Part shown: positions 1 to 27,196 of the stretch, in pieces
How the letters are laid out: each line of letters starts with the position of its first letter
How positions within the stretch are numbered: position 1 is the first letter of the stretch
Assembly: GCA_013390785.1 (NCBI GenBank)
Contig: JACASW010000009.1
Coordinates: 1-37,204 of the forward strand
Length of the DNA stretch: 37,204 nucleotides
Source of the DNA: Marine Group I thaumarchaeote
GTDB taxonomy: Archaea; Thermoproteota; Nitrososphaeria; Nitrososphaerales; Nitrosopumilaceae
Direction: 5' to 3'
Translations under genes and position numbers: made by a program
Notes under the pieces: model-generated
What the model saw: only the letters and a program-made list of their open reading frames with translations
Told to the model about the DNA's origin: nothing
Database searches by the model: none

Positions 1-55
1 GCAAGATGATAATGAAGGACCAGCGCCTACTACGAAAACTGGTTTATTCTCAATT
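1..55. repeat. Left copy of 55-bp terminal direct repeat
   Basis: Bases 1-55 are identical to bases 37150-37204. The repeat lies inside the mptE coding sequence, not in a mobile element or an intergenic repeat. An exact overlap of this length at the two ends of a contig is the usual signature of a de Bruijn assembler that closed a loop (overlap equal to k). It marks the arbitrary cut point of a 37,149-bp circular sequence. Confidence 0.93.
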
Positions 56-195
56 AGATCTCTGATTTTTACAATCGGAGTTTTTTTTGGTAATAATGAA
101 TCTAATAATTTACATGATTGGCCATCCTTCTTTCTTGAATAACCAAAATCTTTTAGGATCTTCTTGTATTTTGAATCCCAACCAACAATAGTCAT
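1..195 (-). CDS. mptE: 6-hydroxymethyl-7,8-dihydropterin pyrophosphokinase MptE, N-terminal part (continues at the right end)
   Basis: This is the first 65 codons of the archaeal MptE/DUF115 family kinase, which transfers pyrophosphate from ATP to 6-hydroxymethyl-dihydropterin in the cytosol. The ATG is at 195-193 and the protein starts MTIVGWDSKYKKILKDFG. The reading frame ends exactly at base 1 with the glycine-rich motif VFVVGAGPSLSSC. The rest lies at 36604-37149: codon 65 joins in frame to ISILKKNKKITKIVADGAT there, giving a full 246-residue protein, about the usual family length. The gene is divergent from the folP-like gene with only 22 bases between the two starts. The two genes act on successive pterin intermediates, so the arrangement looks native. 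The protein is broken only by the contig ends. Confidence 0.88.
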   Translation of the reverse strand, partial: MTIVGWDSKYKKILKDFGYSRKKDGQSCKLLDSLLPKKTPIVKIRDLIENKPVFVVGAGPSLSSC

Positions 196-217
196 ATGAC
201 TCAAATTAGCAGGGTTT

Positions 218-1078
218 ATGATAAATTGTGTGAATAAATTAGGAACTATTAGTGTAGGAGACTCGAATCCTGTCAGAATAATGGGAATTTTAAACACAAG
301 CCCTGAATCATTCTACAAAAAATCCATCTCAATTACCAAACAAAGAATTGTTGATGCGGTTAACAAAATGGAAGAAGAAGGTGCTGATTTTATTGATGTT
401 GGAGGCATGTCTACTGCACCATACCTTTCAACAATGGTATCAGAAAAAATTGAGATGGCTCGCATAGTTAATGCAGTTAAGATAATCCAACATACAACCA
501 ATTTGCCGATTTCTGTTGATACGTGTAGGGCTGCAGTGGCAAAAGAGGCTTTAGAATTAGGTGTGGATATAATCAATGATGTTACTGGTTTGAAATACGA
601 TCCATTTATGCCAAAAATAATTGAAAAATATTATCCATCGCTCATTTTGTGTGCATATAGTAAAAAAATCATTACAGGCAATCAACTGCTGGAAACAAGA
701 CAGTTGTTTAAAAAAAGTCTGGAAATAGCAAAATCAGTAAAAATTCCTAGAACGAAAATTGTTTTAGATCCTGCCATAGGATTTTTCAGGAAAAAAGGCA
801 AAAATTCTTTTTTTACAAAGATTAATTCGGATTGGGTCAAAAGAGATTTGTTGATTTTGGAAAATTTACGATCAATCAAATTGAATATGCCACTTCTTGT
901 ATCAGTTTCAAACAAATCATTCATTGGTAAAATTTTAAAAAAAGAAAATCCATCTGATAGACTCGCTGGATCATTAGCGGCTGAAGTAGTATGTGTCTTA
1001 AATGGAGCAAACATAATTCGTACTCATAATGTAGCAGAAACAAAGGAAGCAATCAGAACAGCTCAAAAGATATCATAA
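218..1078 (+). CDS. Dihydropteroate synthase family protein (FolP-like)
   Basis: A 286-residue TIM-barrel protein of the dihydropteroate synthase family, which couples 6-hydroxymethyl-dihydropterin pyrophosphate to an aromatic amine in folate or methanopterin synthesis. Visible family motifs are MGILNTSPESFY (residues 22-33, compare MGILNVTPDSF), IDVGGMSTAPY (the usual GGESTRPG loop is altered), ISVDTC, INDVTGL, IVLDPAIGF, SNKSFIG and the C-terminal RTHNV (usual RVHDV). Several substrate-loop positions differ from bacterial FolP, as is common in archaeal homologues, so the exact amine substrate is unknown. The ATG at 218 keeps the first beta strand; an internal ATG at 281 would remove it. It sits between mptE and guaB, fitting a GTP-to-pterin neighbourhood. 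The family is sure, the exact substrate is not. Confidence 0.85.
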   Translation: MINCVNKLGTISVGDSNPVRIMGILNTSPESFYKKSISITKQRIVDAVNKMEEEGADFIDVGGMSTAPYLSTMVSEKIEMARIVNAVKIIQHTTNLPISVDTCRAAVAKEALELGVDIINDVTGLKYDPFMPKIIEKYYPSLILCAYSKKIITGNQLLETRQLFKKSLEIAKSVKIPRTKIVLDPAIGFFRKKGKNSFFTKINSDWVKRDLLILENLRSIKLNMPLLVSVSNKSFIGKILKKENPSDRLAGSLAAEVVCVLNGANIIRTHNVAETKEAIRTAQKIS

Positions 1079-1100
1079 TGGCAAGAAAGGCTTATAACAC

Positions 1101-1109
1101 TTTTTTTTT
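1101..1109 (+). terminator. T-tract, possible terminator after folP-like gene
   Basis: A run of nine T lies 22 bases after the folP-like stop codon and before guaB. Archaeal RNA polymerase terminates at such U-tracts without a hairpin. Because guaB follows within 20 bases, termination may be partial. Only the T-run is seen; termination is inferred. Confidence 0.4.
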
Positions 1110-1117
1110 CTAGAGTA

Positions 1118-1122
1118 GGAGG
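1118..1122 (+). promoter_or_regulatory. Shine-Dalgarno site fixing the TTG start of guaB
   Basis: GGAGG lies five bases before the TTG at 1128. It is one of the few clear Shine-Dalgarno sites in the window, where many genes look leaderless. It supports TTG as the start codon, because no ATG is available at the right place for IMP dehydrogenase. Confidence 0.7.
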
Positions 1123-1127
1123 TTCGT

Positions 1128-2564
1128 TTGAATATACGAGAAGGATTGACATTTGATGATGTTCTCCTTGTACCCAAATTTTCAGATGTGACAAGCCGTT
1201 CTCAGACCGATCTTTCAACACAACTTTCTAGAAATATTTCGATAAATATTCCGTTAATCAGCGCCAACATGGATACAGTTACGGAAGCATCAATGGCGGT
1301 AACTATTGCCCGTGAGGGTGGTATAGGAATCATACATAGATTTCTGACAATTAAAGAAGAAGTAAATGAAGTTCTCAAAGTCAAGCGTTCCGGAAGTGTG
1401 ATGATAGAAAATCCATATACAATTAACCCTGAACAAACAATTCATAACGCTTTCATCACAATGAATGAAAAGCAGGTATCTGGACTTTTGGTTGTTGATT
1501 CTAACTCTAAATTAGTAGGAATTTTGACTGAGCGAGATGTATTATTTGAACCACCTAATTGCTCCAAGTTAGTTAAGGATCTAATGACAAAAGATGTTGT
1601 TACTGCAAAACAAGGTATTGATTTGGAAAAATCAAAAGAAATTCTCAAAAAGAACAGGATTGAAAAATTACCTATAATAGATGATAATAATCTAGTTAAA
1701 GGTCTGATAACGAGTCAGGATATTTCCAACTTGGAAAAATATCCTAATGCATCAAAAGATAACAAAGGACGGCCAATTGTTGGAGCAGCTGTTGGTGTTA
1801 AAGGTGATTTTATGGAAAGAACAGAAGCATTGATTGACGCAGGGACGGATGCTATAGTAGTTGACATAGCACACGGTCATAGCGAGAATGCTATAAACAC
1901 AGTGAAAAATATCAAAAAGGCATTTCCTAATTGTGAGCTTATTGCAGGAAATGTAGCAACAGCTAAAGGAACTGAAGATCTGATTAAGGCTGGTGTTGAT
2001 GCAGTAAAAGTTGGAGTTGGCTCTGGTTCTATTTGTATAACTAGAGTTATCACAGGCTCTGGAGTTCCACAGCTTACAGCTGTTATGGATTGTGCTAAAG
2101 TTGGAAATGAGCATGGCATACCAATAATTTCAGATGGAGGTACAAGAACCTCAGGTGACGCAACAAAAGCCTTGGCTGCAGGTGCATCTTCTATCATGGT
2201 AGGCGGTATATTTGGTGGAACGGATGAAACACCTGGTACCACAATTACAAAAAATAATAAACGATTCAAGATTTATCGCGGAATGGCATCTTTAGCAGCC
2301 TCCATGGGGAGGAAAACGAAAGAGACTGGAACTCTTGAGCTAACAGACGACATAAACGATTATGTCGCTGAGGGGGTAGAAGGTATGGTTCCATACAAAG
2401 GAAGTGTTACTGACATCATAACACAAATGACAGGAGGAATTCGTTCAGGACTGAGTTATTGTGGGGCTCATAACATAAAACAAATGCACAAAAATGCAGA
2501 ATTTATTAAAATATCACGAGCGGGATTCGCAGAAAGTCAGCCTCATGATGTAGACGTGATGTAG
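1128..2564 (+). CDS. guaB: Inosine-5'-monophosphate dehydrogenase
   Basis: A 478-residue IMP dehydrogenase, which oxidises IMP to XMP with NAD, the committed step to GMP. The N-terminal motif LTFDDVLLVP, two CBS domains (about residues 95-205), the phosphate-binding loop and the catalytic loop GVGSGSICITR with the active cysteine at residue 303 are all present. So are ISDGGTRTSGD, GGIFGGTDETPG and the C-terminal segment GGIRSGLSYCGA. Length is typical of the bacterial/archaeal enzyme. The start is TTG at 1128, supported by GGAGG upstream and by the family N-terminus NIREGLTFDDV. It is transcribed with the folP-like gene. guaA, the next step (XMP to GMP), is on the other side of mptE when the circle is closed. 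No inactivating change is seen. Confidence 0.97.
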   Translation: MNIREGLTFDDVLLVPKFSDVTSRSQTDLSTQLSRNISINIPLISANMDTVTEASMAVTIAREGGIGIIHRFLTIKEEVNEVLKVKRSGSVMIENPYTINPEQTIHNAFITMNEKQVSGLLVVDSNSKLVGILTERDVLFEPPNCSKLVKDLMTKDVVTAKQGIDLEKSKEILKKNRIEKLPIIDDNNLVKGLITSQDISNLEKYPNASKDNKGRPIVGAAVGVKGDFMERTEALIDAGTDAIVVDIAHGHSENAINTVKNIKKAFPNCELIAGNVATAKGTEDLIKAGVDAVKVGVGSGSICITRVITGSGVPQLTAVMDCAKVGNEHGIPIISDGGTRTSGDATKALAAGASSIMVGGIFGGTDETPGTTITKNNKRFKIYRGMASLAASMGRKTKETGTLELTDDINDYVAEGVEGMVPYKGSVTDIITQMTGGIRSGLSYCGAHNIKQMHKNAEFIKISRAGFAESQPHDVDVM

Positions 2565-2568
2565 TTAG

Positions 2569-2598
2569 TTTTTTATTTATCATTTTAGAGTTTTTTTT
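2569..2598 (+). terminator. T-rich tract after guaB
   Basis: The 34-base gap between guaB and the next gene holds a T6 run (2569-2574) and a T8 run (2591-2598) that ends directly at the next ATG. It fits an intrinsic archaeal terminator for guaB, or the leader of the downstream gene. No hairpin is visible. Confidence 0.4.
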
Positions 2599-3069
2599 AT
2601 GTTAAACAAGTATACTGTAATTGGTTTAATTGTCGGATGTATTATCTCAGGACTTGGTGTTGCTTCCATGATAGATTTCCTTGCAAATCCAATTGACATT
2701 ATGGATTTTGATGACAACTTCGGAGTTGGAGAATCAACTATATTTTCATTCCAAGCACCAGAAAACTCTTTACAAAAATTAATGATTACAGGAGATTCCT
2801 TTGACGTTAAAGTCTCAATACCGGATAATGTAGCAAAATTTGATAATAGTTACAAGAACACGGCAGATTTATCGTGGATAAATACTATTTCAGGTGAGAA
2901 TGTAATCAAAATTCAGAACATTGGAAATTCTGAATTAAATGCAAAAGGAACCTTGGAGAAATCACGAGACCCATTATTCCTCACATATCACATTTTAGTT
3001 ATTATAGCGGGTATTGTTGTAATTGGATTCAGTGCAGCTTTTACTGTAAGAAAGCCACGAGGATTCTAG
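2599..3069 (+). CDS. Hypothetical membrane protein with two transmembrane segments
   Basis: I do not recognise a named family. The 156-residue protein has a hydrophobic N-terminal segment (about residues 7-28, possible signal anchor), an extracytoplasmic domain of roughly 100 residues with beta-rich composition (FSFQAPENSL, DSFDVKVSIPDN, ENVIKIQNIGNSE), and a second membrane segment (about residues 128-148, LVIIAGIVVIGFSAAF) followed by the basic tail VRKPRGF. This is a common design for small thaumarchaeal envelope proteins with a domain outside the membrane. The ATG directly follows a T8 run, so the mRNA leader is likely short. The stop overlaps by four bases the stop region of the convergent pheA gene. 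Function unknown; it could be a small-ligand or protein-binding sensor. Confidence 0.75.
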   Translation: MLNKYTVIGLIVGCIISGLGVASMIDFLANPIDIMDFDDNFGVGESTIFSFQAPENSLQKLMITGDSFDVKVSIPDNVAKFDNSYKNTADLSWINTISGENVIKIQNIGNSELNAKGTLEKSRDPLFLTYHILVIIAGIVVIGFSAAFTVRKPRGF

Positions 3070-3881
3070 TCTAGCTTTGCAATAGGATACGAACCTAAAA
3101 TTTTCAGGAAAGTAGTATTATCTCTTAACTTTTGCAATACATCCTTAATTGCCGAGTCATCTTGATGACCCTCAAAGTCAACATAAAAATTGTATTCCCA
3201 TGCTGTATTTTTGTTTGGTCTAGATTCAATCTTTGTTAGATTTATTTTCTGCTGGTAAAACTCATTGATGATTTGATATAGGGCACCAGATTCATGTTTT
3301 ACCGAGAAAATTATCGACGTCTTGCTATTTTCAGTTTCATCACTCTTTTCTTTAGAAAATATCAAAAATCTAGTATAGTTATTTGTATTATCTTCAACAC
3401 CCTCTTGAATTACCGGAACATCAAAAATTTTTGCTGCGTTTGAACTTGCTATGCATGCTGCACTATTCTTATTCAAATCTTTGATAATTTTTACACTGCC
3501 AGCAGTGTCATAAGATGGAATAGTCTTTAATGAATTTTTTTGAATAAACTGCCTGCATTGACCTAAAGCTTGTGGGTGTGAATATACTGTATCAATATCC
3601 CCAATTGATCCTGTTCCTATAAGGCAATGATGTATTCTATGATAAATCTCACCTACGACATTAAGCTTCGTTGATAACAACAAGTCATTGCTTTCGCCCA
3701 CGCTTCCTTCAAGTGAATTTTCAACGGGCAAAACAGAGTAATCACTTGCACCGTTTTCTGTATTTTTTAATGCATCAGCAAAAGTAGAGCATGGAATAGT
3801 ATTTACCTCATCTCCAAAAAATGAAACTGATGCAGCTTCACTATATGCTCCTCGTTCACCTTGGAACGAAACACGCTTCAT
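3066..3881 (-). CDS. pheA: Prephenate dehydratase
   Basis: A 271-residue monofunctional prephenate dehydratase, which converts prephenate to phenylpyruvate for phenylalanine synthesis. The catalytic domain covers about residues 1-180 (VSFQGERGAYSEAA, LPVENSLEGSV, VYSHPQALGQC, and TRFLIF, whose Thr is in the family's catalytic TRF motif). A C-terminal ACT domain (about 190-271) contains ESGALYQIINEF (family GALYxxL) and ESRPNKNTAWEYNFYVDFEGH (family ESRP), the phenylalanine-binding site for feedback inhibition. It starts three bases after the stop of csl4, so it is the last gene of the minus-strand dph2-csl4-pheA run. Pairing with an exosome gene is only physical linkage. The sequence looks complete. 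Confidence 0.95.
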   Translation of the reverse strand: MKRVSFQGERGAYSEAASVSFFGDEVNTIPCSTFADALKNTENGASDYSVLPVENSLEGSVGESNDLLLSTKLNVVGEIYHRIHHCLIGTGSIGDIDTVYSHPQALGQCRQFIQKNSLKTIPSYDTAGSVKIIKDLNKNSAACIASSNAAKIFDVPVIQEGVEDNTNNYTRFLIFSKEKSDETENSKTSIIFSVKHESGALYQIINEFYQQKINLTKIESRPNKNTAWEYNFYVDFEGHQDDSAIKDVLQKLRDNTTFLKILGSYPIAKLD

Positions 3882-3884
3882 ATC

Positions 3885-4433
3885 TTATTCTCTCACTTTT
3901 AAGAAATCAGTTTTTAAAAAGTCATTTGATAGCTTTCTATCATCAGTCCATCCACATTCAACACATTTTATGATATCACGTAGTGGTTTTACACCCATAC
4001 CACATTTTCTACATTTCGTAAATAATACTCCTAATTCTGGATCCTGAATAGTGGCATGTATTGCTCCATTCAAATGTCCAATAATTTTCAGTTTGACTAG
4101 ATCTTTTACCAAGGCAACATTCTTTTTTCTAATATTTCTTGTTGCGCAAATACATTCTACCTGTGATTTGACTGGTCTAGAGTTTATGTATTTGATCATT
4201 ACAGCAATCATTGATCCCATCACAGCTTCAACTGTACCAATAACAATATCATCTTTTTCTGGAATTGAGATAGGCTTGTTATTTTTGACATTAACTAAAC
4301 GGTTTTTTTTATCAACTTCGCTTTCACCAATGACAGTAGCTCTAACAACATGACCATCATCACAAGCATTGCTTCCCGCCTCATATTCTTCAATTATAGC
4401 TATCTTGTCTCCTGGTAAAACTGAATTAGACAT
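3885..4433 (-). CDS. csl4: Exosome RNA-binding subunit Csl4
   Basis: A 182-residue Csl4, a cap subunit of the archaeal RNA exosome that feeds RNA to the Rrp41-Rrp42 core. An N-terminal domain (LPGDKIAIIEEYEAGSNAC, a Csl4 hallmark) is followed by an S1-type OB fold (about residues 60-130, starting DIVIGTVEAVMGSMIAV), and by a C-terminal zinc ribbon with two pairs of cysteines (CRKC and CVEC, about residues 141-160). In archaea this ribbon contacts DnaG, which recruits the complex to poly(A) RNA. The gene follows the dph2 part of the chimeric ORF after 32 bases and precedes pheA by three bases. Length is typical. The upstream chimera means its native promoter may be missing from this molecule. 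Confidence 0.93.
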   Translation of the reverse strand: MSNSVLPGDKIAIIEEYEAGSNACDDGHVVRATVIGESEVDKKNRLVNVKNNKPISIPEKDDIVIGTVEAVMGSMIAVMIKYINSRPVKSQVECICATRNIRKKNVALVKDLVKLKIIGHLNGAIHATIQDPELGVLFTKCRKCGMGVKPLRDIIKCVECGWTDDRKLSNDFLKTDFLKVRE

Positions 4434-4465
4434 GTATAACTTCTCAAATTATAGCTATTATTTGT

Positions 4466-5689
4466 TTACAGCCAGTGTTTTATCTGAAAATAATTCTCAA
4501 TGTTTTCTTTTCTTAGTAGTTTCATGAGGGCAACAGCCTGAGGGGTTGATAGAACAGGCTTATCAAACCTATTATCAGTTGAAATTCTTGGGCATGCTAC
4601 CTGAATAAAAGCATCAATATCTTTTAGATTCCTTAATCTTTCATTTGTAATATCCGTTAACGCAATGAGATGAACAGTTTTGCCTGCACTTTCTAACTCT
4701 TTTTTAAACTTAAGAGCAGTTAATTTAGAAATCTGACCTTCTTTTAATCCAACTATTACACCAAAAGTTTCCGCATCAACAGATTTGTAAATCTCTAAAG
4801 TAGCTTTTTTCTGTAATTTTTTCGCAAAGTCAGTAATTTCTCGTATCTCATTAAAGTATGGATCTAAAATGTAAGTTGGTTTGTTTGTAGCAAGAGCTAC
4901 CCCCGCAGCATGAAAGTTGCTTTGCCCTAAAAAGACGTTAGCATCTACATCATCAATCATTTCGGTTGCAGGATAGAATTCGCACCCAAAAACTTGTCCA
5001 TCGTTAAGTTGTCCGCTTCCTTTTCCAATTTTTACATTAACACCATTTTCTTCTAACACATTCTTAATTGACTCAATTTGGTTGAGGTGTTGACTATCCG
5101 TAATCAATGAAATTGTTTTTCCCAGAAGCAGCTTAGTGCATTTTTCTACAACTCTATCAAAAGAAATATCATCAAAAGCATCAATCATTATTACATTTTT
5201 TTCAAATGTTTCCATGCTGTTTGTATGGCCAATATTGAATAGTATTTCAGCATTCAATACTTTTGCTCCATTAGAATTCAGATCACAGGTGCCCCAGGTA
5301 GTATCAGCAAGTAGATAGGCTGGAATTCCATATTTCTTGCCAATTTTTAATGTTAGATCCTGTACTTTAGGCAATAAGCCATCTGGACCATTTAAGGCTA
5401 CAGAAGTAGGCTTGCGTGCCTCAATAATATCAAACTTTAACGCAGGATTGTCATAACCAATTTCCGCAATAGTATCTCTTACAACTTTTTCAATGTCAAA
5501 TTTGCCTTTTGATGTAACCTCACCAGCAACTGTAACAAAATCTGTTGTCACAAGTGTCTCAACCGCTACTCTCGAGTCTGGATCATGCCTAAGAAATTCG
5601 TCTAGTATAGCATCAGAAATATGATCAGATACTTTGTCTGGATGACCTTCAGTAACAGATTCTGACGTGAAAATATAGTTTTTTGCCAT
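4466..5689 (-). CDS. metK-dph2: Chimeric ORF: MetK N-terminus fused in frame to Dph2
   Basis: The 407-codon frame joins two unrelated enzymes. Residues 1 to ~87 are the start of a bacterial-type S-adenosylmethionine synthetase ([20 protein letters not shown] with its ATP-site histidine, then VAVETLVTT and VAGEVTS), about the first quarter of MetK; the remaining ~300 residues are absent. From about residue 88 the sequence is Dph2, the radical enzyme that makes the 3-amino-3-carboxypropyl histidine of diphthamide on aEF2 using SAM. It has ALNGPDGLL, the three cluster cysteines C135 (WGTCD), C236 (FGCEF) and C366 (ACPR), and a normal C-terminus. Spacing of the three cysteines (101 and 130) is close to that of known archaeal Dph2. 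Only about 10-25 N-terminal Dph2 residues are missing. I know of no natural MetK-Dph2 fusion. The metK end follows lsm by 13 bases, and the dph2 end precedes csl4 by 32 bases, so each half sits in a plausible native operon. The frame may be an accident of a DNA join. Confidence 0.9.
5425..5440 (-). other. Likely novel joint between metK and dph2
   Basis: MetK similarity fades after [12 protein letters not shown] and Dph2 similarity begins around [17 protein letters not shown], which places the join within about 5425-5440. Both halves share AT-rich codons here (AAG TTT GAT ATT), so a few bases of microhomology could have bridged the ends, but the parent sequences are not available to prove it. 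Because mptE is intact across the contig ends, this is the only visible broken-gene join on the circle. Confidence 0.7.
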
Positions 5690-6850: not shown

Positions 6851-9563
6851 AGCTTTTCTTGAAGAAAAATTTCATTCATTAGGATTTGAACAATTAACAG
6901 ACATACAGAAAAGATCACTACCAATAATTTACCAAAAAATCGATTCGTTGGTTATAGCTCCAACCGGCTCTGGTAAAACAGAATGCTCAGTGATTCCTAC
7001 TTTTTCACAGATCAAAAAAACAAAAAAGGAAGGAAAGATCAAGCTACTTTACATTACTCCGTTAAGATCACTTAACCGCGATGTTTTTCGACGAATAGCT
7101 AAATATGCTGAATTAGATGATCTAACAATTCAAGTTAGACATGGGGATACTTCTCAATCACTTAGAAAAAAAATTTCAGATTCACCACCTGACGTATTAA
7201 TTACAACACCAGAAACGCTTGTTATCCTTCTTACTCAACAAAAAATGTTAACTGCACTTTCTGAATTGGAACGAGTCATAGTTGATGAGGTACACGAGCT
7301 TTTGGCAAGTGAAAGAGGCTCACAATTATCAATAAGCCTAGAAAGACTACAACTTAACTCAAACCAAAAAATTACACGGACCGGCTTATCAGCTACCATT
7401 GGGAATATTGAAGACGCTGGACACTTTCTTGTTGGAACAAAGAAACCATGTAAGATAATTCGGGATAAATCAATGAGGAAATATAATGTTGAAGTCAAAT
7501 TTGTGAAAGGTTCAATTTCTGAAGTGGCTGATTCAATCATTCACTATATTGAAAAATCAGACATAAACTCTCCAGTTCTTTTGTTTACTAACACTAGGGG
7601 CGAATCTGAATTTTTAGCTTCAATACTAAGAGAAAAAACTTTGATGAATATAGAATTACACCATGGCTCATTATCAAAACAAGTTAGAGAAGAAACAGAA
7701 AGCATACTTCGGAGTGGAGCAGGTGGCATAGTTGTATGCACATCATCTCTTGAATTAGGATTGGATATTGGTTCGGTAGAACTTGTAATTCATTATGGTT
7801 CGCCACGTCAGGTATCAAAATTAATGCAACGAATAGGCAGGAGTAAGCATTTTCGAAATTCATCTGCAAGAGGACTAGTTATCACAAATAGACCTGATGA
7901 TGAATTTGAAACAAGAGCAATCCTTGATAGAATAAAAAATAGCTCCATTGAAGAACAAAAAATTCATAATGAATCTCTTGATGTTTTGGCCCATCATCTG
8001 GTTGGCTTGTCACTACAGATGGGGGAACTATCTATTGATTTTGCATATAAAATAATCAAACAAGCCTATCCATTTAGAAATTTAACATTAGATGAATTTT
8101 GTAATGTTCTAGAAATTTTGGATCAGATCTATATTTTATCTTTTGACAAGAAAAAAATGAAATTTTGGAAAACACGTAAAGCATTTAGATATTATTTTGA
8201 AAATCTTTCAACAATTCCAGATATTTTAAAATTCAGAGTATTTGATTCAGTAGGAAAGAAGATCATAGGATCCTTAGATCAAAGGTTTGTAGGAGATCAT
8301 GGTGAAGCGGGAAACATATTTGTCCTCCGTGGAATGCAGTGGAGGATACTGAATATTGACGAAAAAGCTTTGCAAGTAAATGTTGAACCAATCAGAGGTG
8401 AACGAAAAAATGTACCTTACTGGGAGGGAGAAAACATTCCCATAGATTACGATACTGCACAAAAAGTTGGATTGTTCAGAAATAAAGTAAAACATGGTTC
8501 ATTATCGATGTTTAACAATATAATTTCGGATCTAGATTTTAACATTATACCTGATGAGAAAACTATTGTAATTGAATCTGTGAGAACAGATCGTAATGTA
8601 GTTATTCATGCATGTTTTGGTACAAAAATCAATTCAACTCTAGCAACTACACTTTCTTCACTACTAGAATCAACTCTTGGATATGTTGTTCAGTCAAGAT
8701 CAGATGCATATAGAATTATTTTGGAATCTAATGCAAGAATCAGCAAGAAGATCATTGTGGAGACTTTAACTGAAGAATTTGTTCTTCGTGACATTGTAAC
8801 TGCATCTTTGATTGGGACACATAATGTTAATTGGAGAACATGGTGTGTTGCAAAAAAATTTGGAATGGTGGGTCGTGGTGCTATTTATGATAGAAAATCG
8901 GGCCGTTTTATTTATGAGCGATATCAAAACACACCAGTTGTTATCGAGGCATTAAGAGAGCTGTTTCACGACAAATTTGATCTAAATGGTACTGAATCTA
9001 TCTTAAGCAGAATCAGAAATAATGAAATTCAGATTGAATGGGTTGATGTTGACAAATTTTCAAAACTAGCAGAACCATTATTAGATCACGCTACAAAATA
9101 TTACGCATCTCCGGCAAGTGTGGATAAGGCAATTCTCGATTTAGTAAAAAAGCGGCTGTTGAAAACTAAACGGCGTCTAATTTGTGCTCGCTGTGGTAAA
9201 TGGCAACTAGCAGTCATTACGGAAGAAGTAAAGAAAAATCTTCATTGTAAATATTGTAAGAGTAGACAAATTACAAATACGTTTTATACGGATTATGATT
9301 TGGTTAAAATCATTCAGAAAAAATATAATGGTAAAAAACTTTCTGCTGAAGAAAATAAAAGTTTTAAGCGAGCCTGGACAGTTGCTTCGCTGATTGAAAC
9401 TTTTGGTAAAAATGCTTCAATTGTATTAGCGGGACATGGTATTGGTGCTGATACTGCGAAAAGGATTTTACGAAATATGACTGATCCAGATCTTATGTAT
9501 AAACAAATTTACGAAGCTGAAAGACAGTATGTAATGACAAGACCTTTTTGGGATGATAATTAA
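6807..9563 (+). CDS. lhr: Lhr-type superfamily 2 ATP-dependent DNA helicase
   Basis: A 918-residue large helicase-related protein. RecA domain 1 shows the Q motif (FEQLTDIQKRSLP), Walker A APTGSGKT (residues 51-58), TPLRSL, TTPETL, the DEVH box (160-163) and SAT in GLSATIG. RecA domain 2 has LLFTNTRGESE, HHGSLSKQVR, TSSLELGLDIG and QRIGRSKH. A long C-terminal part holds the winged-helix and DUF1998-free Lhr-core region and a zinc ribbon (CARC at 793-796 and CKYC about 20 residues later). Archaeal Lhr-core unwinds DNA and RNA-DNA hybrids 3'-5' at stalled forks. Its stop overlaps by four bases the stop of convergent rpa. Start ATG 6807 overlaps the microprotein gene. Length matches Lhr-core rather than the much longer bacterial Lhr. 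Confidence 0.92.
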   Translation: MSELEQKILKNPPLEAFLEEKFHSLGFEQLTDIQKRSLPIIYQKIDSLVIAPTGSGKTECSVIPTFSQIKKTKKEGKIKLLYITPLRSLNRDVFRRIAKYAELDDLTIQVRHGDTSQSLRKKISDSPPDVLITTPETLVILLTQQKMLTALSELERVIVDEVHELLASERGSQLSISLERLQLNSNQKITRTGLSATIGNIEDAGHFLVGTKKPCKIIRDKSMRKYNVEVKFVKGSISEVADSIIHYIEKSDINSPVLLFTNTRGESEFLASILREKTLMNIELHHGSLSKQVREETESILRSGAGGIVVCTSSLELGLDIGSVELVIHYGSPRQVSKLMQRIGRSKHFRNSSARGLVITNRPDDEFETRAILDRIKNSSIEEQKIHNESLDVLAHHLVGLSLQMGELSIDFAYKIIKQAYPFRNLTLDEFCNVLEILDQIYILSFDKKKMKFWKTRKAFRYYFENLSTIPDILKFRVFDSVGKKIIGSLDQRFVGDHGEAGNIFVLRGMQWRILNIDEKALQVNVEPIRGERKNVPYWEGENIPIDYDTAQKVGLFRNKVKHGSLSMFNNIISDLDFNIIPDEKTIVIESVRTDRNVVIHACFGTKINSTLATTLSSLLESTLGYVVQSRSDAYRIILESNARISKKIIVETLTEEFVLRDIVTASLIGTHNVNWRTWCVAKKFGMVGRGAIYDRKSGRFIYERYQNTPVVIEALRELFHDKFDLNGTESILSRIRNNEIQIEWVDVDKFSKLAEPLLDHATKYYASPASVDKAILDLVKKRLLKTKRRLICARCGKWQLAVITEEVKKNLHCKYCKSRQITNTFYTDYDLVKIIQKKYNGKKLSAEENKSFKRAWTVASLIETFGKNASIVLAGHGIGADTAKRILRNMTDPDLMYKQIYEAERQYVMTRPFWDDN

Positions 9564-10957
9564 TTCTTTTTTACAATAGTTGAAAATGGTGTTAAAAATA
9601 ATTCTGTTCTTCCTTCAAGTCCAGCTTTTGCGTTAACTGTGGTAACAGAAATTATCTCGCCCACAGAAAGCCCATCTAAAAGAAGAGCTTGATTTCTCCA
9701 CCCTTTAATCCAAATTTGGCCACTATCATCCTCAACGAACATTTCTGATAACGAAATTGTTTCTCCAGTTTTTGTTTGAACTTCTCGCTTTTCTGGTTCT
9801 TTCAAAATTATGGCTTCAACACAGTAATCATTTCCGGATTTAACATCAGAAATTTTTGTTCTTAGACTGGATAATGATGGTACGCTTTTGTCATCTTCAA
9901 TTTTTCTTAGAAATGAATCTTGGTTTATTGTTATAGAATTACCAAAAACTTGTGATGGCATGCATTCTATAACATCTCCAGTATTGATAGAATCTAGCAT
10001 GTTTGATGAATCTGATATGTATACCATGTTCTTCTTATCATCTATGCCTGTCGCAATAGTTTTTTCTCCATCATTTCTCTTTATTGTTGCAATGCGTACA
10101 ATAACAGGCTCTGTTTCTTTTCCTCCTTCAATCTCAACCAATGTTGCCTCATTTCCATGAATCTCAAGACCTTGGTTTCCTACCTTTGTTCTGACGCCTA
10201 AGAGCCGAACTTTTGCATTCTGAGGAATAAGTTTTGGTAAAAATGATTCATCTTTTCCCCATATCACTACACCTTTTGCAGCGCCATCATTTCCTTTTAA
10301 TCTCATTTTAAGTCCTTTTCCTGGTTCTCCACGCTTGTTCGTAAATTCCAGTGTAGTTATGTTACCATCAATTTTACCTAAAACAACTAAATTACTTTGA
10401 TTTTCCTTAACATCACTGACATCAACAGCTAGATCATCAATTGGACAAATTTTGCTTTCTTTATTGGCTGATTCGATATTAGATCCTGAACCAACATTTA
10501 TCGTTGGACTACCGTTAAGATCCGATTTAACGTAAGCCTTGATTATTTTTATCAAATCACCGGGTTTTAGTTCTTCAATTCCTGGAAGGTTAGCCTTTTC
10601 ATCCCAAAGTTTTACACTAGCAGTAGAATCGTTATCATAAACAGTCATAGTTCTAAGTAAGAAAGGCGAGCCATCTTTTCTAGAAAACTGCTTAGTAGGC
10701 GAAATGTTCAGAACTCTGCTTTCGATTGATACATCTTTCGCGCCTACGTAAATATCCTTTAGACCCATTTCAACTTTCAATGTTTGCTTTAATGTTATTC
10801 CCAGATCTGATGCAATAAGAAAAAGGGCACCTTGATCCGTTAAATAACCAACGCCTATCTTTTCCTTTTTTTGTTTAATTTTATCATCAATGTCTCCTTT
10901 AGTTAATTCAGGTTTTTGTTCCCGAATCTTTTCTAGTAATTCTTCAAACTCTGACAA
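9560..10957 (-). CDS. Replication protein A, single-stranded DNA-binding, multiple OB folds
   Basis: A 465-residue RPA-like protein that coats single-stranded DNA in replication and repair. After a helical N-terminus (residues 1-60, SEFEELLEKIREQ) come repeated OB folds, seen as SRVLNISPTKQFSRKDGSP with KLWDEKANLP (about 80-165), KIDGNITTLEFTNKRGEPG with VVIWGKDESFLP (about 190-280), a third near IVRIATIKRNDGEK, and a fourth ending QIWIKGWRNQALLL and GRTELFLTPFSTI. No zinc finger is visible. The start is TTG at 10957, supported by GGGAG eight bases upstream; SEFEELL fits the family N-terminus. It is divergent from the ABC exporter genes and convergent with lhr. The four-OB count is from reading the sequence, not from alignment. 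Confidence 0.88.
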   Translation of the reverse strand: MSEFEELLEKIREQKPELTKGDIDDKIKQKKEKIGVGYLTDQGALFLIASDLGITLKQTLKVEMGLKDIYVGAKDVSIESRVLNISPTKQFSRKDGSPFLLRTMTVYDNDSTASVKLWDEKANLPGIEELKPGDLIKIIKAYVKSDLNGSPTINVGSGSNIESANKESKICPIDDLAVDVSDVKENQSNLVVLGKIDGNITTLEFTNKRGEPGKGLKMRLKGNDGAAKGVVIWGKDESFLPKLIPQNAKVRLLGVRTKVGNQGLEIHGNEATLVEIEGGKETEPVIVRIATIKRNDGEKTIATGIDDKKNMVYISDSSNMLDSINTGDVIECMPSQVFGNSITINQDSFLRKIEDDKSVPSLSSLRTKISDVKSGNDYCVEAIILKEPEKREVQTKTGETISLSEMFVEDDSGQIWIKGWRNQALLLDGLSVGEIISVTTVNAKAGLEGRTELFLTPFSTIVKKN

Positions 10958-11025
10958 GTTGCTCCCTTAATTTTTCACCTTTTCATCTCTTATTAACATT
11001 TAAGGAGTCTAGGATTTTAAGAAAC

Positions 11026-11979
11026 ATGAAATCTATTTTTGCCCGATCGCTTTTCAAATCATATGACGGAATAAATGCAGTAGATGGTATAGATCTAGAT
11101 GTAGATGAAGGACAAATTTTTGGTTTTCTAGGACCAAATGGAGCAGGAAAATCAACTGTGATTAAACTGCTAACTACATTGATCCAACCAACCAGTGGCA
11201 AAATTTCAGTTCTAGAAATTGATACAGCAAAGGAGCCATTAAGCATAAGAAAAAAAATCGGTGTAGTTTTACAGCAACCAAGTTACGAACCAACACTTTC
11301 AGTAGAAAAATCACTTGAAAAATATGGAATGATGTGGAACCTTGACAAACAAACTAGAATGGATAGAACAGAAGAACTTCTTACCTCCTTTAATCTAGTT
11401 GAAATTAGAAAGAAAAAAAATGAGGACCTTTCTATTGGTCAGAGAAGACGAGTTCAGGTTGCTCGTGAGTTTATGCATGATATGGATTTGTTATTCCTAG
11501 ATGAACCTACTGTTGGATTGGATCCAACTGCCAGGCGTCAATTATTAGATTTTTTAAAAAATAAAGTAAAGGAAAAAAACTTGACAATATTTTACACAAC
11601 GCATGTATTGACCGAGGCAGAATATCTCTGCGATAACATTGCAATTATCAATAAAGGTAGAATAATTACTATTGACTCCCCTAACGAACTTAAAAAAAGA
11701 TTTGGTAGTGAAAAAACAATCAAAATTCACGTTTCTTCCAATACTGAAGCATTAGAAAGTATTTTAGAAAATGTTAATGATTGTAAAATTGAGTTTAATA
11801 CAGGAGCAACAATCACAATACATTCTACTGATTCTGAACTTGTTTTAATGAATATTCTAAAAATTTTAAATCAAAACAATATAGCTATAGATGATTTGTC
11901 TGCAATACCGACAAATCTTGAAGAAATATTTCTCAAAGTTGTAAGTGATTCTAATGCATCCGATAATCAGACTAGTTAA
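11026..11979 (+). CDS. ABC transporter ATP-binding protein (DrrA-like exporter type)
   Basis: A 317-residue ABC ATPase. Walker A GPNGAGKST (about residues 38-46), Q-loop VLQQPSY, signature LSIGQRRRVQVA, Walker B LLFLDEPTVGLDP and switch histidine in YTTHVLTEAE are all intact. The extra C-terminal ~90 residues (IKIHVSSNTEALES to LEEIFLKVV) are the regulatory extension of the DrrA/CcmA drug- and lipid-exporter group. It energises the permease encoded immediately downstream, whose start lies within the end of this gene. The 68-base gap to rpa holds ATTTAAGG about 27 bases before the ATG, a candidate TATA for a leaderless mRNA. The substrate cannot be read from the sequence. Confidence 0.93.
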   Translation: MKSIFARSLFKSYDGINAVDGIDLDVDEGQIFGFLGPNGAGKSTVIKLLTTLIQPTSGKISVLEIDTAKEPLSIRKKIGVVLQQPSYEPTLSVEKSLEKYGMMWNLDKQTRMDRTEELLTSFNLVEIRKKKNEDLSIGQRRRVQVAREFMHDMDLLFLDEPTVGLDPTARRQLLDFLKNKVKEKNLTIFYTTHVLTEAEYLCDNIAIINKGRIITIDSPNELKKRFGSEKTIKIHVSSNTEALESILENVNDCKIEFNTGATITIHSTDSELVLMNILKILNQNNIAIDDLSAIPTNLEEIFLKVVSDSNASDNQTS

Positions 11980-13931: not shown

Positions 13932-15062
13932 ATGAAAGAAAAAGTTGTGTTTTTTGGATTAAGTACGGAAGGATATTCTCTTGCTAGTAAGATGGTTATC
14001 AATGGTGCAAACGTGCGGATAATCGATGAATCGTCCTCTTCTGCAATATTACTTAAACCAGAAACTGCAAAAACCTACACAAATGTGATCTCACTTCGAG
14101 AAGATGAACCTCTACTAGCTATGCAGCCAAGCAACGTTGCGATTTCAGAAGCTAAATATCTTTTCTTTACACCACGAATAAGGAAAACTGGTCAGGATCT
14201 AAAAACAGAAGTAAATTCCAAGTTTAAAGAAGCAGTAGGAGAATTGAAGGAAGGCAGTTCAGTTATTAATTGTCTTGCTACTGGATTTGGTGGAAATAAC
14301 GAAAATATATCACTTTTAAAACATGTTACTGGATTCGAAGTTGGAAAATCAATTTCTTACTTTTATTTTCCACTAAACGATTTGAATAAAACACCAGAAG
14401 TAATTGGTTCACTAAAAAGTATTGAAGAAAAAAAGCTTTTACCATTACTAAAAACGGATAAAAAAGAAAAAAAATTTATAGATATTTCTTCTGCAGAGTA
14501 CTTGCATGCAATTAATACCATCCAAAGATTCTCTAGTTTGTGTACTGTTTTAGAAGTTTTACGAAATGTAAACAGGGATACAAGGCACGCCAAATTATTT
14601 AGTGATTTTAATAATCTATATCTTGATGATATGGTAACTGGTCTTTATGATCTGCGTATGCTTGGATCCTCATTTGAGAGCGCACAAACTTTGATGTACC
14701 TGATTAACGGAAGCGTTAGAGGAATTACAGGTTATATCAAGAGATTGATTGATACTATTAGAATAACTTTGAAAAAAAATGATCTGAAAGCTAGTAAGAC
14801 CAAAATTGTATTATCATGGACATTGGATACAAATGAAATGAGAGGAGATAAGATTGAGATGTTAAATATCATTGCTTCTAAACTGCGTGATTATATTGGT
14901 GACATAGAAACATCAACCGGCTCAGTGGATTTGTTTCATCATGATAAAGTAACAATAGTAGTAGCTTGTTCTAGTTCTGATTATAAGGCAATAAGCGAAA
15001 TTGAAAAAGGCAAAGACATTTTTGTGATTAAAGCAAATCCTCTATGCGAAATTTCGTCATAA
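13932..15062 (+). CDS. Rossmann-fold protein, distant relative of nucleotide-sugar dehydrogenases
   Basis: A 376-residue protein with an N-terminal dinucleotide-binding fold (VVFFGLSTEGYSLASKMVINGANVRIIDE, residues 5-33; the usual GxGxxG is GLSTEG), a second strand-loop segment (SVINCLATGFGGNNENISLL) and a helical middle region (about 190-275, EYLHAINTIQRFSSL and NNLYLDDMVTGLYDLRMLGSS). This order resembles UDP-glucose/GDP-mannose or 6-phosphogluconate dehydrogenases, but the catalytic GFGGxCxPKD motif is not present, so a different reaction or a non-enzymatic role is likely. A C-terminal ~110-residue domain (KTKIVLSWTLDTNEMRGDK to the end) is unassigned. Divergent from the DUF354 gene, followed after 33 bases by grpE. 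Function unknown. Confidence 0.65.
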   Translation: MKEKVVFFGLSTEGYSLASKMVINGANVRIIDESSSSAILLKPETAKTYTNVISLREDEPLLAMQPSNVAISEAKYLFFTPRIRKTGQDLKTEVNSKFKEAVGELKEGSSVINCLATGFGGNNENISLLKHVTGFEVGKSISYFYFPLNDLNKTPEVIGSLKSIEEKKLLPLLKTDKKEKKFIDISSAEYLHAINTIQRFSSLCTVLEVLRNVNRDTRHAKLFSDFNNLYLDDMVTGLYDLRMLGSSFESAQTLMYLINGSVRGITGYIKRLIDTIRITLKKNDLKASKTKIVLSWTLDTNEMRGDKIEMLNIIASKLRDYIGDIETSTGSVDLFHHDKVTIVVACSSSDYKAISEIEKGKDIFVIKANPLCEISS

Positions 15063-15667: not shown

Positions 15668-17518
15668 ATGGCAGAAAGAATAATTGGTATTGATTTAGGA
15701 ACAAGTAACTCAGCTGCTGCAATTATCCAAGGTGGTAAGCCAACAATAATTCCTGCAGCTGAGGGTCAAACGGCACATGGTAAAGCATTTCCATCAGTTG
15801 TTGCATTTCCAAAGGATGGTAGCGCTATGCTTGTTGGCACACCGGCTGTTAACCAAGCTGTAACAAATCCTGAAAATACAATTACTAAGGCAAAGAGACA
15901 GATGGGTACAGACCATGTTTACAAAATTGAAGGTAAAGAATACAAGCCACAACAAATCTCTGCGTTTATTTTACAAAAAATTAAAAAAGATGCTGAGGCA
16001 TTTACTGGAGATAAGATTACAAAGGCAGTAATTACGGTCCCTGCATATTTTGATGATAATCAGAGACAAGCTACCAAAGATGCGGGAACAATCGCCGGAC
16101 TTGAGGTAACACGAATTATCAATGAGCCTACTGCAGCTGCTCTTGCTTTTGGTCTTGATAAAGCAAAGCAAGACATGAAGATACTGGTGTTTGATTTTGG
16201 TGGTGGTACACTTGATGTAACAATAATGGAAATGGGTGGTGGCGTTTTTGAAGTAATGAGTACTTCTGGCGATACTAAGCTGGGTGGTACTGATATGGAT
16301 TTAGCAATAATAGATTATGCCAAAGAAGAATTCAGAAAGAAAGAGGGAGTTGATCTTTCAAGTGATAAGAAAGCTATGGAACGACTCAGAGAGGGTTGCG
16401 AAAAGGCAAAGATCGAACTTTCTGGTGTAATGGAAACGGACATAAACTTACCATATATTCATGAAAAAACTGCGCTTGAAGTTAAACTAACAAGAGCTAA
16501 ACTAGACAGTCTTGTAACATCACTAGTTGAGAGATGTAAGCCTTCAATTGATAAGGCGCTAGAAGATGCAAAGATATCCGCTTCAGACATCACCAAAATT
16601 GTACTTGTTGGTGGACCTACTAGAATGCCAATTGTGAAAAAATTTGTAGGAGATGCAGTTGGACAAAGTGCAGAATCTGGAGTTGATCCAATGGAGGCTG
16701 TAGCATTTGGAGCTGCCATTCAAGCTGGTATCATGGCGGGAGACGTTGAAAGTGATATTGTCTTACTAGATGTGACTCCATTAACGTTAGGAATTGAAAC
16801 CTTAGGTGGTGTACGTGAACCAATTATTGAGAGAAATACCACAATACCTACATCCAAAGATAAGACTTTCACAACAGCTGCTGATAGCCAAACCGCAGTT
16901 ACAATAAATGTAGTTCAGGGAGAGCGACCAATGGTTGCTGATAATGTTTCATTGGGTAGTTTCAACTTAACTGATATTCCGCCTGCTCCTAGAGGAGTTC
17001 CACAAGTCAACGTAAAATTCGATATTGATGCAAATGGTATCATAAACGTAACAGCAAAGGATCTTGGAACTGGAAAGGACGCTAAAATTACAATAGAATC
17101 TACTACAAAATTATCAGATGAAGAAGTAGAAAAATTGAAGCAAGATGCAGAAAAGCACGCAGATGAAGACAAGAAGAAAAAGGAATCTGTAGATATCAAA
17201 AATGAAGCAGAAAGCTTCATCTACACAACGGAAAAATTGGTTAATCAAGATCTTAAAGACAAAATATCACAAGAACAGGGAATCAAGATTACAGATGCAG
17301 TAAAAGAAGTAAAGGAAGTGCTAAGTCAGGATTCAGAACAAATTAAGACAAAACTCGATGCATTGAAAGCAATAGTTAATGAAATAACCACCGAGTTATA
17401 CAAGAATGCTACTCCTCCACCAGGTGCAGCTCAACAGGAAGACGGAGCCAAATCTGAAGAAAAATCAGAGCCTGAGCCAGAACCAGAATCTAAACCAGAT
17501 GAAGAGCAATCTAAATAA
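15668..17518 (+). CDS. dnaK: Hsp70 chaperone DnaK
   Basis: A 616-residue DnaK. The nucleotide-binding domain (about 1-360) shows [63 protein letters not shown] and [10 protein letters not shown]. The inter-domain linker [16 protein letters not shown] leads to the substrate-binding beta domain and helical lid. The C-terminus is a low-complexity stretch with repeats of EPEP and ESKPDEE. Length is typical of actinobacterial or archaeal DnaK, slightly shorter than E. coli. It lies 17 bases after grpE and 29 before dnaJ, one operon. Likely cytosolic, with ATP-driven client folding and heat-stress protection. Confidence 0.98.
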
Positions 17519-17547
17519 AATTCAAAACCCAAATTGTTTGATTAGAG

Positions 17548-18657
17548 ATGAGTGCAAAGCGTGATTATTACGAAGTCTTAGGTGTTTCGAAGGATACTCA
17601 ACTGAATGAGATCAAGTCCCAATACAGAAAATTAGCTTTAAAATTTCACCCAGACAGAAACAAATCTGCTGAAGCCGCTGAACATTTCAAGGAAATTTCA
17701 GAAGCATACGCAGTTTTGTCAGATACAAAAAAACGCAGTCTTTATGATCAACATGGTCATGCTGGTGTAGATGGACGATACAGTACTGAAGATATTTTCA
17801 GAGGAGCCGGAGCTAACTTTGATGACATCTTTAGTGACTTGTTTGGAGGAAGAGGTCGAAGAACGACAGGTGGTTTTGATTCTATTTTTGAAAATCTCTT
17901 TGGTGGGAGGTCACAAGGATTTGGTGGTTTCGGAAGACAAAGAGGATCTGACATGCTGTACGAAACCTCTGTTTCGCTTGAAGATGTGCTTAACGGAAAA
18001 AGAATGGAGCTTGATTTGCAAAAAAATGTGGATTGTCCTGATTGTAACGGTTCTGGATGTTTTCCTGGAACATCAAAAACAAAATGTTCGGATTGTAATG
18101 GTCAAGGACAAGTAAGAATTAGTCGGAACATGGGATTTTCTACTTTTGTAACTGTCCAACCATGTAGAAAATGCAGTGGGCAAGGAATGATGATAGAAAA
18201 ACCATGCAAAAAATGTAAGTTAGGAAAAGTAAAAGGTACTAAGCACATATCGTTTGAACTTCCTGCCGGTATAGACAATGGTGATTATGTGATATCTGGT
18301 GAAGGGGAGTCAGTACCAGATGGTGCAAATGGTGATCTAATAATAAGAGTTAACGTTGAACCACATCCTAAATTCAAACGTGATGGAAGAGATATTTTTT
18401 ATGACACACAAATATCAATAATGGACGCAAGCTTGGGGAAAAATTTGGAAGTTCCAACGCTAGAAGGATCCAATAAAATTTCTGTGGAACCTGGCAGCCA
18501 ACCAAACACAATAATCAAACTTAAGGGAAAAGGATTGTCAGGACGTGGACTTAGAGGTAGAGGTGATCAATATGTTAGATTAGTAGTTAATATTCCAAAA
18601 AAACTAAGCAGGCACCAAAAAGATTTGTTAAAGGAGTTAGAAGACTCGTTTAATTAA
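17548..18657 (+). CDS. dnaJ: Co-chaperone DnaJ (Hsp40)
   Basis: A 369-residue type I DnaJ. The J domain (residues 1-70) contains DYYEVLGVSKDTQ and the HPD tripeptide in LKFHPDRN that stimulates DnaK ATPase. A G/F-rich region (about 75-130, FGGRGRRTTGGF, FGGRSQGFGGFG) follows, then the zinc domain (about 155-225) with CPDCNGSGC, CSDCNGQGQ, CRKCSGQGM and a fourth element CKKCKLGKV, which departs from the CxxCxGxG consensus but keeps its cysteines. C-terminal beta domains end the protein. It is the last gene of the chaperone operon. A convergent small gene begins on the other strand ten bases later. Confidence 0.97.
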   Translation: MSAKRDYYEVLGVSKDTQLNEIKSQYRKLALKFHPDRNKSAEAAEHFKEISEAYAVLSDTKKRSLYDQHGHAGVDGRYSTEDIFRGAGANFDDIFSDLFGGRGRRTTGGFDSIFENLFGGRSQGFGGFGRQRGSDMLYETSVSLEDVLNGKRMELDLQKNVDCPDCNGSGCFPGTSKTKCSDCNGQGQVRISRNMGFSTFVTVQPCRKCSGQGMMIEKPCKKCKLGKVKGTKHISFELPAGIDNGDYVISGEGESVPDGANGDLIIRVNVEPHPKFKRDGRDIFYDTQISIMDASLGKNLEVPTLEGSNKISVEPGSQPNTIIKLKGKGLSGRGLRGRGDQYVRLVVNIPKKLSRHQKDLLKELEDSFN

Positions 18658-18666
18658 CACTGAATT

Positions 18667-18852
18667 TTAACCGGTTTCAGATTTTTTTTTATGAATTTTT
18701 ACGTGATGCCCACCACGAGTGTGCGTAACATGTATGGTTTGAATTAGCCCATCAACCACATCCTCCGAATAGTATTTCACATTGTATCTAGCAAGCACTT
18801 TCTTACAATTATCACAGTATATCTCTCTAAATTCCACTAAATTGATAGACAC
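18667..18852 (-). CDS. Small putative zinc-binding protein (61 residues)
   Basis: I do not recognise a named family. The 61-residue frame starts at GTG 18852 (V/M)SINLVEFREIYCDNCKKVL and ends before dnaJ. It has one CxxC pair (residues 13-16) and a histidine-rich stretch IHVTHTRGGHHVKIHKK, giving enough ligands for one metal site. The mixture of hydrophobic beta-like segments and a basic C-terminal tail is more like a real small protein than a chance frame, and nothing else explains this gap. Convergent to dnaJ, divergent from tRNA-Leu. Could be a nucleic-acid-binding ribbon. Conservation untested. Confidence 0.6.
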   Translation of the reverse strand: MSINLVEFREIYCDNCKKVLARYNVKYYSEDVVDGLIQTIHVTHTRGGHHVKIHKKKSETG

Positions 18853-18915
18853 ACTCGACTATTTTGTGTTTACTCACGAAAAAGAAACTTATTCTATGTT
18901 TTTTCTTTTCTTGTT

Positions 18916-19000
18916 GCGGGGGTCGCCCAGCCTGGCCAACGGCGTAAGGTTCAGATCCTTATCTCCTAGGAGTTCGTGGGTTCAAATCCCACTTCCCGCA
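18916..19000 (+). tRNA. tRNA-Leu (anticodon CAG)
   Basis: An 85-nt class II tRNA. Acceptor GCGGGGG pairs with TTCCCGC (two G-U pairs), discriminator A at 19000. The anticodon stem TAAGG/CCTTA is perfect, with loop TTCAGAT, so anticodon CAG reads CUG. A long variable arm (about TCTCCTAGGAG) marks a class II leucine tRNA. The T-arm is GTGGG-TTCAAAT-CCCAC. No CCA encoded and no intron. The last 19 bases overlap the 3' end of gatE on the other strand. Confidence 0.95.
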
Positions 19001-21105: not shown

Positions 21106-21107
21106 AC

Positions 21108-22391
21108 TTAAAACTCTGAGGCAATATTCTCCATCATTAGTGACTTCATCTCATCGGAGTTTTTTGAATTTCCTAGTGCCCACATCGCTTTTACAAGTGA
21201 AGTCTCTGGCGTCATATTCTCAAGAGGAGTGATTCCTAATTCCAACAAATCCCTGCCGCTTTCATAGACTGTCATCCTAACCCTACCATCGATACACTGT
21301 GATGTCATTCCCAAAAACAGATCATTTTCATTTGCATTTTTTATAACATCATGCATTGTACGTCCAACATGTCCTAGTCCAGTTCCCTCAAAAATTATTG
21401 CCTTGCATCCTGTTTGTATCAAGTTTTCAATTAATTTTGGGTCGTAGCCAGGATGATATTTTACAAGTGCAACTTTGGTCTCAATCTTCATTCTTGGGTT
21501 GTATTTTGTGTCTTTAAAAAAATCATCTTGTATATTTTTTTTAATTTTTCCTTCAGCAATTATGAACGCAGGGTCACTACCCATTGTCTCAAACGCTCCA
21601 CGCTTGCTTGTATGATTTTTTCTAACCCTGGTTCCCCCATGGCATGCAACTGTCTGATCATTATCGTTATGGTGCATAACAAGAAAAACGCCTTTTGTGT
21701 TGGATTCAACAAGAAATTTTGAAGCTGCAATCAGGTTTATCGCTGCGTCAGATGATGCTCTATCAGACGATCTCTGTGAGCCAACAAGTGCAACGGGAAT
21801 GGGAAATCCGGCAAGTGCAAAAGACAAAAAAGAAGATGTGTAATGCATGGTGTCTGTTCCATGCGCAATCAGTATACCCTTGTAGTCAGAGTTTGCGAGC
21901 GAATCAAGTTTTTCCGCAATTTTTGTCCAGTGGTCTGGCTGTAAGTTTTCTGAATATTCCGAGAATAAAACTTCCGCATCAATATTAGCAATTTTTCCAA
22001 GCTCTGGAACTGCTTCATTAAGATCAGATGCACTAAGTGCAGGCGTAACAGCACCAGTTCTGTAATCAACCTTACTTGCAATTGTTCCTCCCGTAGAAAG
22101 AAGCAAAATTTTCGGAAGAGATGGATCCTCTTTTCTTTCTTGATCCTGTTTAGGCTTTACTTCAGAACTAGAAACGATCTCTATGTTTTGAATCTCATCA
22201 ACATTGATCCCTACATTGTAACCGCTTCCTAATTTTACTACTAGATGTATATCATCACCAGACTCGTATCTAGGCATTAGGATTCCAGAGTATGTCAAAT
22301 CAGCTGTGATCTTGATTGAATCGCCAACTTTGACATTGTTTTTTTTCAAACAATCAAGCGATTTTCCAGAATATCCTTGGTCTTCTGACAT
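21108..22391 (-). CDS. gatD: Glu-tRNA(Gln) amidotransferase subunit D
   Basis: A 427-residue GatD, the asparaginase-like subunit that releases ammonia from glutamine or asparagine for GatE. An N-terminal barrel domain (residues 1-85, KVGDSIKITADLTYSGILMPRY) precedes the type-I asparaginase fold, with LLSTGGTIAS (catalytic Thr), AHGTDTMHYT (Thr-Asp pair), GSQRSSDRASSDA and the later EGTGLGHVG. Only GatD proteins have this N-terminal extension, so it is not a free asparaginase. The ATG at 22391 starts MSEDQGYSGKSL. The gene runs directly into gatE and follows cdc48 by 31 bases on the same strand. Complete and typical. Confidence 0.97.
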   Translation of the reverse strand: MSEDQGYSGKSLDCLKKNNVKVGDSIKITADLTYSGILMPRYESGDDIHLVVKLGSGYNVGINVDEIQNIEIVSSSEVKPKQDQERKEDPSLPKILLLSTGGTIASKVDYRTGAVTPALSASDLNEAVPELGKIANIDAEVLFSEYSENLQPDHWTKIAEKLDSLANSDYKGILIAHGTDTMHYTSSFLSFALAGFPIPVALVGSQRSSDRASSDAAINLIAASKFLVESNTKGVFLVMHHNDNDQTVACHGGTRVRKNHTSKRGAFETMGSDPAFIIAEGKIKKNIQDDFFKDTKYNPRMKIETKVALVKYHPGYDPKLIENLIQTGCKAIIFEGTGLGHVGRTMHDVIKNANENDLFLGMTSQCIDGRVRMTVYESGRDLLELGITPLENMTPETSLVKAMWALGNSKNSDEMKSLMMENIASEF

Positions 22392-22422
22392 TGTGGTGGA
22401 TTAAGCAGTTATTTTATTAAAA

Positions 22423-24681: not shown

Positions 24682-24702
24682 AATTTATCACCCTTTATGT
24701 AT

Positions 24703-24712
24703 TGTTTATACC
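24703..24712 (-). promoter_or_regulatory. TATA box (BoxA) for cdc48
   Basis: The minus strand reads GGTATAAACA, centred about 26 bases before the cdc48 ATG, the spacing expected of a leaderless archaeal transcript. The purine-rich ACAAA just upstream could be a BRE. This is a position and sequence match only. Confidence 0.55.
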
Positions 24713-24756
24713 TTTGTCGATGAATTTCAATGCAAATACTTCATTTAATCAGAAGC

Positions 24757-24763
24757 TTAAAAT
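24757..24763 (+). promoter_or_regulatory. TATA-like element for rpl2
   Basis: TTAAAAT lies about 29 bases before the TTG start of rpl2, again the spacing of a leaderless transcript. No Shine-Dalgarno site precedes the start, which supports this reading. Confidence 0.45.
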
Positions 24764-24789
24764 CTGTTGAATAATCAAAAATTTTTACC

Positions 24790-25524: not shown

Positions 25525-25569
25525 TATTATTTTATTAAAACTGATTAGTATCCTTGTTTTTGTATATAC

Positions 25570-25848: not shown

Positions 25849-25867
25849 AATTTGTTAAGAGAAAATA

Positions 25868-26185: not shown

Positions 26186-26221
26186 TTCATGATTCAAACT
26201 AATGTTATATTTGAATTAGGA

Positions 26222-27130: not shown

Positions 27131-27196
27131 ATCTTTTTAACTATTTTTCAGTAATTTAGGTTTTAACGTGAATCATATTTTATTATACTTGTTACA

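Follow-up and report, generated by a model that had tools for sequence, protein, structure and literature searches.

Chimeras made by phi29 polymerase during MDA join non-adjacent sites of one genome through a short overlap, with a modal length of 6 nt (PMC1855051, PMC4595205); most of the overlaps are between 5 and 8 nt (PMC4595205). In an earlier survey, 85% of MDA chimeras were inverted; direct joins between sites more than 10 kb apart made up 58 of 475, and 27.6% of these had at least two complementary bases (Lasken and Stockwell, 2007; PMC1855051). The stretch of DNA analyzed here (the window; 37,204 nt) contains a junction of this general kind, designated break A, which likewise joins non-adjacent sites across 6 nt, is found in one assembly only, and breaks a gene. 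It differs from most described MDA chimeras, which are inverted and join sites close together, in being direct and order-reversed, with its two sites ~37 kb apart, so that it gives a loop.

The circular contigs produced by de Bruijn assemblers are a second point of comparison. As in the window, their ends overlap by the assembler's k value (here 55), they are cut at an arbitrary point within a gene, and the reading frame is intact across the ends. Contigs of this kind are commonly interpreted as plasmids or complete virus genomes, but the content of the window is core chromosome. Its gene order, including the join between its ends in mptE, is shared with Ca. Nitrosopelagicus-type chromosomes (AC-665-F20, AG-439-M12, AG-426-M08) at 83–89% identity; unlike the window, these have metK and dph2 complete and at separate places, and other neighbors for their rSAM and ROK genes. 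The window is likely to be a stretch of the chromosome of a Nitrosopelagicus-type marine ammonia-oxidizing archaeon that was closed into a ring by a chimeric metK::dph2 junction of laboratory or assembly origin.

Terminal overlap and the mptE gene

Bases 1–55 of the window, within mptE, are identical to bases 37,150–37,204, exactly as the original prediction had it, and 55 bp is the longest exact suffix-prefix overlap present. No other copy of this 55-mer was found in the window or in the rest of its own assembly (G000; 949 kb in 26 contigs, designated C; comparison genomes are numbered from G001). Once circularized, the sequence is 37,149 bp long. On the minus strand, positions 195 to 1 contain mptE codons 1–65, which continue in frame at 37,149 with codons 66–246 and a stop codon ending at 36,604. 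The restored 246-aa product matches the Pfam family MptE-like (PF01973, 4e-34), and intact homologues in congeners are 52–86% identical to it; the alignment to the closest of these, in G010 (86%), spans the join. The in-frame reading and the intact homologues thus agree with the earlier claim that joining the ends repairs mptE. A chance terminal repeat is ruled out by the 55 exact bases together with the restored gene.

Relatives also show the same arrangement around the gene. Contig C3 of G010 is collinear through the join, with window positions 36,617–37,204 corresponding to its 32,624–33,211 and window positions 1–5434 to its 33,157–38,590, so that the two ends of the window share exactly 55 bp of this contig. 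In seven genomes (G010, G024, G007, G003, G019, G004, and G013) mptE is followed by DHPS-IMPDH-g2599-pheA-csl4-dph2, and in six of them (G010, G024, G003, G019, G004, and G013) ROK-guaA-g36017 is on the other side of mptE on the same contig; the exception is G007, whose mptE contig starts ~230 bp from the gene. Because DNA and gene order in relatives run collinearly through it, the mptE join is, as judged from sequence comparison, the normal chromosomal order, and the contig appears simply to have been cut at an arbitrary point. A second overlap of the same size within G000 supports the suggestion of an assembler k value of 55: contigs C18 and C10 share exactly 55 bp at their starts, in opposite sense.

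Gene content and chromosomal blocks

The window encodes 34 proteins, with roles in folate and purine metabolism, translation, chaperone function, and repair, and two tRNAs. A Pfam scan of all 34 proteins found only housekeeping families, and none for replication initiation, partition, integration or mobility, or viral functions. Four proteins are without a Pfam match (13,932–15,062, 2599–3069, 29,828–30,223, and 36,017–36,562); all are in conserved chromosomal order in congeners. Apart from one fusion ORF, described below, each of the remaining 33 proteins has orthologues in the same order on chromosomal contigs of congeners, within two blocks. Other than short tRNA and paralogue matches, there is no further copy of the ring genes in G000.

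The first block, segment 1, is 9 kb long and runs from 33,582 through the 37,149/1 join to 5434. Its left part (1–5434), from the 5′ part of mptE through dph2, is unbroken at 83–88% DNA identity in G010, G007, G024, and others; its right part (33,582–37,149; ROK, guaA, g36017, and the 3′ part of mptE) is collinear in relatives and contiguous with the left part via the join. Segment 2 (5429–33,588; 28 kb) begins with the 5′ part of metK and continues through lsm-radB-lhr, grpE-dnaK-dnaJ-gatE-gatD-cdc48-L2, and further genes to rSAM. It too is a chromosomal block, but located elsewhere than segment 1 in relatives: it is collinear with positions 22,959–50,896 of contig C3 in G007, and is split between contigs in G010 (C2/C9) and G024 (C2/C18). 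DNA identity of the ring to congeners is fairly uniform, at 83–89%. Contamination from a second organism is unlikely, since the two segments are similarly identical to the same relatives.

The metK::dph2 junction

Break A (5429–5434; GCCTCAATAATATCAAACTTTAACGCAGG) joins dph2 to metK across a 6-nt overlap, ATCAAA. In DNA comparisons with four close relatives, the match to segment 1 ends at 5434 and that to segment 2 begins at 5429. Because an overlap of at least 6 nt is expected in only 0.26% of random position pairs of the window sequence, its presence here is meaningful; it is also within the range of ~5–8 nt looked for in a chimera. The metK/dph2 join is absent from all relatives checked, in which each side continues normally elsewhere, and neither this junction nor the rSAM|ROK junction discussed below was matched in IMG/VR.

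Across break A runs a 407-aa fusion ORF (4466–5689, minus strand). By Pfam, residues 1 to ~87 are metK (S-AdoMet_synt_N), and those from ~86 onward are dph2 (Diphthamide_syn): metK is cut after ~86 of its ~390 codons, and the start of dph2 is removed. No homologue spanning the fusion was found in a search of 84,980 species, each represented by one genome; matches cover either residues 1–87 or residues 86–407, and one distant homologue of the metK part covers residues 3–103.

G000 lacks the remainder of metK (PF02773), which was found in 12 of 15 congeners searched, in one of them split between two contigs. The archaeal-type synthetase (PF01941) was not found in any member of the genus searched, G000 included. 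Only the bacterial-type MetK was found within the genus (G000–G015 searched); G025, from another family of the order, has both types. S-adenosylmethionine synthetase is essential, and a cell with only the break A form of the locus would have none. With metK cut and both PF02773 and PF01941 absent, no viable lineage could therefore have the ring as its only version of this locus, and break A probably does not exist as a stable state. Sequences that would be expected to flank the intact genes are also short or missing: contig C2 of G000 ends ~1.5 kb beyond the metK cut, and the 12 kb beyond dph2 that are conserved in relatives are absent from the assembly.

The ring is closed at break A alone, 5.4 kb from the mptE join. 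Of the original prediction of a closed loop, it can be said that the ends do join and that the assembly does contain the loop; a natural circle does not follow, as the ring is closed abnormally at break A. Read support at 37,149/1 alone would pass while leaving break A, the decisive junction, unprobed.

The rSAM|ROK junction

The two segments also meet at break B (33,582–33,588; CAACAGGCAACAATGTAACTAAAACTTC), where rSAM is joined to ROK with an overlap of 6–7 nt (~AACTAAA) at the rSAM stop codon. If break B were, as is proposed for break A, an amplification chimera, the ring would consist of two unrelated chromosome pieces joined twice, a reading that overlaps with the one preferred here. The overlap is of similar length to that at break A, and the rSAM|ROK adjacency was not found in relatives, where AglB is located beyond rSAM and a thermosome gene beside ROK. 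A chimeric break B is nevertheless unlikely: the junction is intergenic and breaks no gene, and the displaced neighbors AglB and thermosome adjoin one another within the 91-kb contig C18 of G000 (~67,526–71,603), separated by 85 bp of diverged spacer, which is what a genuine reciprocal rearrangement would leave behind. Break B is for this reason probably a genuine, lineage-specific chromosomal rearrangement.

A contig of G012 with rSAM and ROK 15 kb apart was considered as a missing intermediate, but guaA does not adjoin ROK there, and the contig was left out when the chromosome was ordered. The neighborhood of AglB, an N-glycosylation gene, is variable in another respect. In G010, a 398-aa gene whose product by eye resembles an NAD-dependent formate or hydroxyacid dehydrogenase is found between AglB and rSAM (C9, within 17,000–30,400); in G000 it is on contig C21 instead (within 7000–11,500).

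Origin of the ring

If break B is genuine and break A chimeric, the linear order in the organism would be metK, segment 2, rSAM|ROK, segment 1, dph2. A chimeric molecule would then have joined metK to dph2 via ATCAAA, closing the ring. The likeliest source is a template switch by phi29 polymerase while the whole genome of a single cell was being amplified, which would give tandem or looped copies of the stretch. With the flanks of metK and dph2 unrecovered, a k = 55 de Bruijn assembler would have met an unbranched loop and cut it arbitrarily, in this case within mptE, leaving the 55-bp terminal overlap. That the assembler saw no branch is attributed to the missing flanks.

Both phi29 amplification of the sample and an origin of the chimera in vitro rather than within the cell are inferred. 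Among the nearest named relatives are several whose names mark them as single-cell genomes (AC-665-F20, AG-439-M12, and AG-426-M08). A final k of 55 is also the default of metaSPAdes for ordinary metagenomes. Single-cell genome pipelines assemble with SPAdes --sc (PMC5519541, PMC10224968). The Bigelow pipeline trims 100 bp off contig ends (PMC5519541), which would have erased a 55-bp overlap, so the assembly came from a different one. Against an in vitro origin, microhomology-mediated joining in vivo leaves the same scar as a phi29 chimera.

The ring could also be a real circle that arose in one cell, or in a minority of cells, when microhomology-mediated joining linked metK to dph2 and excised the stretch, and that was then preferentially amplified by the rolling-circle mode. 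A 6-nt microhomology suits end joining, and an unbranched loop that is cut away from break A and lacks both flanks is what an already circular template should give. There is no replication module on the circle, however; the reciprocal flank-to-flank product was not found, though ~18% of the genome is missing; and no second case turned up among relatives or in IMG/VR. This origin is unlikely. It would place in a single streamlined marine archaeal cell a spontaneous 37-kb circle of core genes (guaA, IMPDH, L2, cdc48, dnaK, and tRNAs) with a 6-nt microhomology joint, which is itself improbable.

If the 37-kb stretch were duplicated in tandem in the chromosome, break A would be the novel joint between copies, and metK and dph2 would each be intact at an outer edge. 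A direct, order-reversed joint is exactly what this predicts, and with complete genes on the outside the cell would stay viable. In that case, though, a branch would be expected in the assembly graph at break A, with the contig ending there and not in mptE, and the assembly does not contain the outer flanks; such a duplication is distinctly improbable.

Plasmid or virus status

A stable 37,149-bp circular replicon, whether plasmid, chromid, or virus genome, is very improbable: the exact 55-bp overlap and the mptE gene restored across it fit a closed molecule, but all of the genes are core chromosomal genes in the order of relatives' chromosomes, none is a plasmid or viral hallmark, GuaA and rSAM are without relatives in IMG/VR, and the join that closes the ring destroys the only type of S-adenosylmethionine synthetase in the genus. 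More specifically, the Pfam scan of the 34 proteins gave no replication, partition, or mobility genes of the ring's own, and nothing in its gene content stands apart from the chromosome of relatives, every gene falling within the two collinear blocks. As for a virus or provirus, there is no viral Pfam family, and searches of IMG/VR gave neither a GuaA or rSAM relative nor either junction. Gene content and synteny are accordingly the grounds on which the plasmid and virus readings are rejected. Although the assembly does contain the loop, the evidence argues against a natural replicon of 37 kb.

A simple rule for reading circular contigs follows. When a gene is restored across a terminal overlap, this proves no more than that the contig was cut at an arbitrary point, and before a ring is believed, every other join in it should be tested against relatives. 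Otherwise the metK::dph2 ORF, the product of break A, could be misannotated as a new bifunctional or fused enzyme, and the circle, taken at face value, would lead to a piece of core chromosome being catalogued as an archaeal plasmid or virus.
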